This document shows positions 55,726-55,875 of a DNA stretch of 64,000 nucleotides, in pieces; the stretch's first letter is position 1; each line of letters begins with the position of its first letter. The position numbers and the translations under genes were made by a program. Location of the stretch: the NCBI GenBank assembly GCA_027315115.1, contig DAHUYQ010000025.1:1-64000 (forward strand). Reading direction: 5' to 3'. The stretch comes from Solirubrobacterales bacterium. Lineage in GTDB: Bacteria; Actinomycetota; Thermoleophilia; Solirubrobacterales; Solirubrobacteraceae. Under the pieces are notes generated by a model. That model worked only from the letters and a program-made list of their open reading frames with translations, made no database searches and was not told the origin of the DNA.

Positions 55726-55829
55726 CGTCGCGACTGGCGCTCGGAGCCCGCTCCCGCAATCCAGGGAGAGGCTGAAGGTGGGGTAAACCACCGGGGAGCG
55801 ACGCAAGATCACCGCCGCGCGCCTGGGCA
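55726..55829 (+). promoter_or_regulatory. ZTP (pfl) riboswitch upstream of serC
   Basis: All conserved parts of the ZTP/ZMP riboswitch are visible. P1 is CGTCGC (55726-55731) with GCGACG (55798-55803), followed by GACTGGCG (55732-55739). Hairpin GGTGG-GGTAAA-CCACC runs directly into CCGGGGAGCGACG, and the 3' domain has CCGCGCGCCTGGGCA. An extra hairpin (AGCC/GGCT plus CTCCC/GGGAG, 55745-55773) is inserted between the two parts of the first domain. A later 6-bp stem CCTCAG/CTGAGG (55832-55856) before the Shine-Dalgarno GAGGA may be part of the expression platform. ZTP senses shortage of 10-formyl-THF. Confidence 0.9.
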
Positions 55830-55875
55830 CCCCTCAGATCCCGCACACCCCTGAGGTCCGACAGCGAGGAAGCCC

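Follow-up and report, generated by a model that had tools for sequence, protein, structure and literature searches.

A ZTP Aptamer Precedes serC and serA

The window analyzed here is a 64-kb stretch of a 3.3-Mb draft genome from the Solirubrobacterales, an order of little-studied soil bacteria. It carries the serine-synthesis genes serC and serA as neighbors, with a ZTP/ZMP riboswitch aptamer in the leader position ahead of them on the same strand. The elements of the aptamer and the two genes are as follows.

55720–55835, + strand: ZTP/ZMP riboswitch aptamer, RF01750 (cmscan, full model)
55724–55731, + strand: region of the P1 5′ strand, with its partner at about 55798–55803 (Rfam alignment)
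55736–55739, + strand: GGCG, the J1/2 pseudoknot strand, with its partner CGCC at 55820–55823 (sequence, Rfam consensus)
55777–55792, + strand: P2 hairpin, GGUGG (55777–55781) with CCACC (55788–55792) (Rfam alignment, sequence)
55814–55828, + strand: P3 and L3, GCC (55814–55816) with GGC (55826–55828), the loop holding CGCC and UG (Rfam alignment)
55876–57039, + strand: serC, phosphoserine transaminase (TIGR01366, 617.4 bits, cut-off 401.65)
57041–58681, + strand: serA, phosphoglycerate dehydrogenase (TIGR01327, 605.2 bits, cut-off 454)

When the whole window was compared with 4227 Rfam families using cmscan, the only match at or over a gathering score was to RF01750 (ZMP-ZTP), scoring 51.7 bits where the gathering score is 39 (E = 1.6e-05) and coverage of positions 1–86 of the 86-position model. 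A preliminary description of this DNA, which set the start of the element at 55726, 6 nt inside the Rfam match, had assigned it to the ZTP class with the consensus parts in order, and the covariance-model search bears this out. The aptamer is 116 nt long, against a family median of 85. In the Rfam alignment its core consensus blocks are intact, and both strands of the pseudoknot (GGCG and CGCC) and the conserved L3/P3 segment UGGGC are present; the J1/2-L3 pseudoknot is a described feature of ZTP riboswitches (PMC10687018). The window RNA agrees with the ZTP class in each sequence feature tested, and binding of the class ligand is predicted from these features. The serC motif, an orphan riboswitch candidate, is also a leader RNA of serine genes yet a different RNA (PMC7266159); identity with it was rejected because only RF01750 reached threshold in the window.

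The aptamer ends 40 nt before the start of serC, and serA begins one base past the end of serC. These two genes had been named as the target from the outset, and both protein matches, directly 3′ of the aptamer, lie well above the curated cut-offs. The next gene, leuA, starts 257 bases past serA, and ilvC lies upstream; no evidence links either of them to the switch. A 194-residue reading frame in the interval between ilvC and the riboswitch (55059–55643, + strand) had no NCBIfam match.

The Aptamer Recurs ahead of serC, serA, and glyA in Related Genomes

The draft genome that contains the window has two ZTP aptamers over threshold, the one 5′ of serC-serA and a second 5′ of glyA. Matches occur in 22 of 24 genomes of the genus and 96 of 146 of the family, compared with 45/199 in a sample of the class and 44/396 in a sample of the phylum. 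Five duplicate loci (L123 and L148–L151) were excluded before counting. The family contributes 140 matches, including one below the gathering score (G296:C178, 37.8 bits). They precede serC (83 matches), glyA (51), and serA (4), and the two that remain unassigned are an orphan copy (L091) and a match at a contig end (L169). A chance pairing of the aptamer with serine genes was rejected, as 87 of the 140 family matches precede serC or serA. Counted by genome, a serine-gene copy is found in 87 of the 96, a glyA copy in 51, and both in 42; many of these genomes are incomplete drafts, so the absence of one copy says little.

Among the best 80 of 581 confirmed serC matches, the aptamer lies directly 5′ in all seven loci from the Solirubrobacterales, five of them so titled and two, Solirubrobacter phytolaccae and Patulibacter americanus, placed there by taxonomy, and none of the 73 loci from other lineages has a match over threshold. 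The phylum sample gave 33 matches outside the class; tblastn on 20 of these found glyA downstream of 12 and serC or serA downstream of none.

One family member, L091 (genome G018, 1501–1582), is a third ZTP aptamer in a single genome and is near in sequence to the serC copy of that genome (L108). No serC, serA, or glyA match lies downstream, and it may be an orphan copy or an effect of assembly.

A Predicted Helix Links the Aptamer to the serC Start Site

The sequence around the aptamer provides a candidate promoter and several candidate elements of an expression platform.

55689–55716, + strand: possible promoter, TTGCGG (55689–55694), a 16-nt spacer, and TACACT (55711–55716) (proposed from the sequence)
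55824–55828, + strand: UGGGC, the L3/P3 strand, with GCCCA at the start site as alternative partner (predicted folds)
55832–55856, + strand: 6-bp stem, CCUCAG (55832–55837) with CUGAGG (55851–55856) (minimum-energy fold of the window leader)
55866–55870, + strand: Shine-Dalgarno GAGGA (sequence; identical in all 12 leaders of alignment A1)
55872–55876, + strand: GCCCA, partner of UGGGC, its last A being the A of the start codon (sequence, predicted folds)

The preliminary description had placed the leader behind a good promoter. The TTGCGG-TACACT pair is plausible as a promoter, and the motif TA[ACG]ACT recurs just 5′ of 18 of the 19 listed serC-linked aptamers (counted by eye; L095 deviates), but a consensus promoter scan near the leader found none, and we retain the promoter as plausible rather than good. 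The further proposal that the platform is not a terminator holds. No terminator-like site occurs in 55600–55900, and five consecutive Ts from P3 to the start are found in 0/134 family leaders, which led us to reject an intrinsic terminator; the 134 are the usable leaders among 140, with L091, L102, L163, L169, L181, and L235 left out.

The minimum-energy folds instead draw attention to the start site. A closing helix was counted if at least three of the five bases of UGGGC paired with the start codon or with the 13 bases preceding it, and expected values were obtained by shuffling the leader tail while keeping UGGGC and the start codon. The closing helix is present in 16/16 serC leaders of the same genus, where 6.3 are expected, these being related leaders and not 16 independent events, with a common ancestry for which the shuffling makes no correction, and in 3/3 serC leaders of genus g2 (1.5 expected). 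With at least six start-region pairs required in addition, the count is 14 of 16 genus leaders (5.1 expected), with the window leader among the two that fall short. Over the same 16 leaders, the duplex of arm and start region has a mean z of −2.05. GCCC lies no more than 10 nt from the start in 15 of the 16 genus serC leaders, versus 1 of 20 genus glyA leaders, and the latter have no excess of the closing helix (8/20, with 7.9 expected). The UGGGC:(G)CCC(A) helix is the recurring predicted element across the genus.

Across the family, the closing helix is found in 52 of 80 serC leaders, with 33.5 expected. It is scarce in g21 (1/6), g25 (3/12), and g104 (0/3), where the arm-to-start z is positive (0.67, 0.50, and 0.61, respectively). 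The start-site mechanism is therefore not family-wide, and the platforms of these three genera must work otherwise. Pairing of the start region with the 13-nt P3 block or with J1/2 shows no excess over the 80 serC leaders (mean z 0.03 and 0.08). For glyA, where the fold count took 49 of 50 family leaders within its length limits, a start hidden by GCGCC pairing with the J1/2 strand GGCG is unsupported in the genus (mean z −0.18, n = 20).

A swap (permutation) test for covariation of the arms was negative, with permuted arms doing equally well in 0.42 of cases in g1 and g2 (n = 19) and 0.076 in the family (n = 74 of the 80 serC leaders, by length limits). Swapped arms pair as well as natural ones, so the arms display conservation without demonstrated covariation. 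Folded as a single sequence, the leader did not outperform its shuffles (z −0.56 and 0.34).

In most of the 19 folds from the genus and g2, judged by eye, a CCUC-type arm 3′ of the aptamer pairs with GAGG of the Shine-Dalgarno site. The window fold differs in detail: the UGGGC:GCCCA helix is present, but the CCUC arm forms the 6-bp stem, nested inside that helix, in place of an anti-Shine-Dalgarno helix, and the Shine-Dalgarno site is partly paired. This stem was the switch element first suggested for the leader. It is present in the window fold but is not a recurring element across the genus, and the closing helix is the more probable switching element.

A Translational ON Switch Is the Preferred Model

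When 10-formyl-THF is scarce, PurH stalls and ZMP/ZTP levels rise. In the model we propose, UGGGC of the ligand-free aptamer would base-pair with the start-codon GCCCA, closing the structure around the Shine-Dalgarno site. When 10-formyl-THF runs short, the AICAR nucleotides ZMP and ZTP would accumulate and bind the aptamer, and the bound ligand would lock P3 and the J1/2-L3 pseudoknot such that UGGGC is no longer free for GCCCA; the start site would then open and SerC and SerA would be made. Because P3/L3 is part of the bound aptamer, the closing helix and the bound state should be mutually exclusive, which predicts an ON switch. The same logic is published for transcriptional ZTP switches, in which the platform or terminator must break P3 and the pseudoknot (PMC10687018, PMC13273304). 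We hold it to be very probable that this leader is a genuine ZTP riboswitch controlling serC-serA, in all likelihood through translation and as an ON switch.

An unlikely alternative, though the one that survives best, is a ZTP riboswitch whose action is transcriptional, by way of Rho or pausing, and for which the start-site helix is only incidental. The best-studied ZTP switches are indeed transcriptional (PMC7484762, PMC10687018), and the negative swap test speaks for this reading. Against this, no intrinsic terminator was found in 55600–55900 and no stretch of five Ts in the 134 leaders, the distance from P3 to the start is 28–53 nt (median 35.5, 80 serC leaders) and leaves scant room, and the closing helix is predicted in every one of the genus serC leaders.

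A Rare Hairpin in J1/2

One departure from the class consensus is a hairpin inserted past the GGCG pseudoknot strand.

55745–55773, + strand: inserted 29-nt two-part hairpin in J1/2, AGCC:GGCU and CUCCC:GGGAG (sequence, predicted fold)

An extra hairpin of about 29 bases had been noted in the first domain; our analysis agrees on its length and locates it to J1/2. The segment from GGCG to P2 measures 4–12 nt in 124 of 128 parsed family aptamers and 38–56 nt in the other four, which are the window's aptamer, the serC aptamers of G019 and G187, and the glyA aptamer of G302. Fourteen of 163 aptamers were unparsed, 12 of them in the family; these include the serC aptamer of G272, with a J1/2 of 23 nt. 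Outside the family, an aptamer of G074 has a J1/2 of 49 nt. All six long segments are predicted to fold as one or two hairpins. Among 500 dinucleotide shuffles of each, the share folding equally well is 0.088 for the 38-nt window segment, 0.042 for G019, 0.198 for G302, 0.012 for G187, 0.038 for G272, and 0.012 for G074; on a 40-nt cut, the window hairpin is no better than shuffles (z 0.09).

The J1/2 hairpin is rare and recurrent. A SerC tree joins the window's genome with G019 (99/98) and G187 with G272 (95/78) as sister pairs, a placement which suggests that the members of each pair inherited their insert from a common ancestor and that such inserts were gained perhaps four times. The window and G019 inserts have a common two-part hairpin shape with little sequence in common.

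Extra paired elements are known in ZTP RNAs between the two sub-domains, and the available portions of the papers concerned (PMC12191101, PMC7484762, PMC10687018) describe none in J1/2. The Clostridium beijerinckii ZTP riboswitch likewise bears a peripheral hairpin on the conserved core, but its extra helix is in the linker between the sub-domains (PMC12191101, PMC10687018), whereas that of the window is in J1/2.

An insert that adjoins a pseudoknot strand might disable or retune the aptamer, with altered affinity or another ligand, and the score of the window aptamer is on the low side for its genus (range 47.4–65.3 bits). We nevertheless find such a variant quite improbable, since the core is intact and the aptamers with an insert at the same site, in the sister genome G019 and in G302, G187, G272, and G074, are all over gathering. 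Most likely, the hairpin is a peripheral extension of an intact ZTP aptamer.

Discussion

Serine is a main one-carbon donor through GlyA. With one aptamer copy at serC-serA and another at glyA, the predicted response to ZTP would turn on supply (SerA and SerC) together with use (GlyA); carbon would be drawn out of 3-phosphoglycerate into serine, then into glycine and methylene-THF, and methylene-THF, then formyl-THF, would be refilled. Published reporters point in the same direction: trimethoprim raises the output of both a translational ZTP-lacZ fusion of Pectobacterium and a pfl-glyA-lacZ reporter of Cupriavidus (PMC10117056, PMC10882993). An OFF switch, by which the bound aptamer would shut serC-serA and spare carbon while purine synthesis stalls, has a precedent in the OFF switches predicted 5′ of moeA (PMC9481103) but is highly improbable here, given those reporters, a predicted closing helix that uses P3/L3 nucleotides and hence competes with the bound state, a pathway product, serine, that is a C1 donor the alarm calls for, and the position of the other copy 5′ of glyA.

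The ON switch could be part of a broader scheme, in which ZTP, acting on two riboswitches, controls the full path from 3-phosphoglycerate via serine to C1 units in the Solirubrobacterales and the J1/2 hairpin is a functional add-on that tunes affinity or kinetics or docks a second factor, as opposed to neutral padding. We regard this scheme, taken as a whole, as unlikely.

Compared with the RF01750 ZMP/ZTP (pfl) class, the window RNA has the full model match, P1, P2, P3, the pseudoknot strands, and L3 in common, and differs in the 29-nt J1/2 hairpin, the serC-serA target, and a probably translational platform. The link between ZTP and serine is not wholly new. In Bacillus and Oceanobacillus, ZTP aptamers stand in tandem with glycine riboswitches 5′ of the gene that starts serine synthesis (PMC9481103), and there too the ZTP aptamer is predicted to turn on the enzyme that begins the path from 3-phosphoglycerate to serine. 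The present case differs in its lineage (Solirubrobacterales), its target (serC-serA), and its lineage-wide occurrence, and no glycine riboswitch reaches the Rfam threshold in the 64-kb window. The open-licence literature, as far as its accessible text goes and with the founding paper of Kim et al. 2015 outside it, yielded no report of ZTP control of serC-serA in the Solirubrobacterales. This is a well-supported new case of a ZTP riboswitch: it is lineage-wide, its target has a precedent in principle, and its peripheral hairpin recurs.

These leaders widen the ZTP regulon, across a bacterial family, from the use of serine (glyA) to its making (serC-serA), and present a case where one alarmone may set the flow of carbon into one-carbon metabolism. 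They also supply a compact ZTP switch, probably translational, to set beside the thoroughly studied switches that act on transcription, and they form a natural set of ZTP leaders, some bearing the J1/2 hairpin and some lacking it.

Other Genes behind ZTP Aptamers

Several matches in the wider samples precede other genes. In the phylum, aptamers L253, L255, and L260 lie 5′ of a gene weakly like the archaeal-type IMP cyclohydrolase PurO, the likeness coming from the L253 protein at 34 bits, which is below cut-off. The matches L248 and L252 stand 5′ of genes for TupA, which binds tungstate (34.4 bits, below gathering), and for a ModE-like regulator; they recall the moeA link in PMC9481103 and hint at a possible tie between ZTP and the use of molybdenum or tungsten. 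In family f9 of the class, thirteen ZTP aptamers (L138, L141, L142, L145, L146, L238–L242, and L244–L246), four of them 124–140 nt long, precede a long gene. The first 170 residues of the L138 product resemble a ferredoxin/NuoG-like domain with a GltD-like domain after it, and the other twelve products appear alike by eye.
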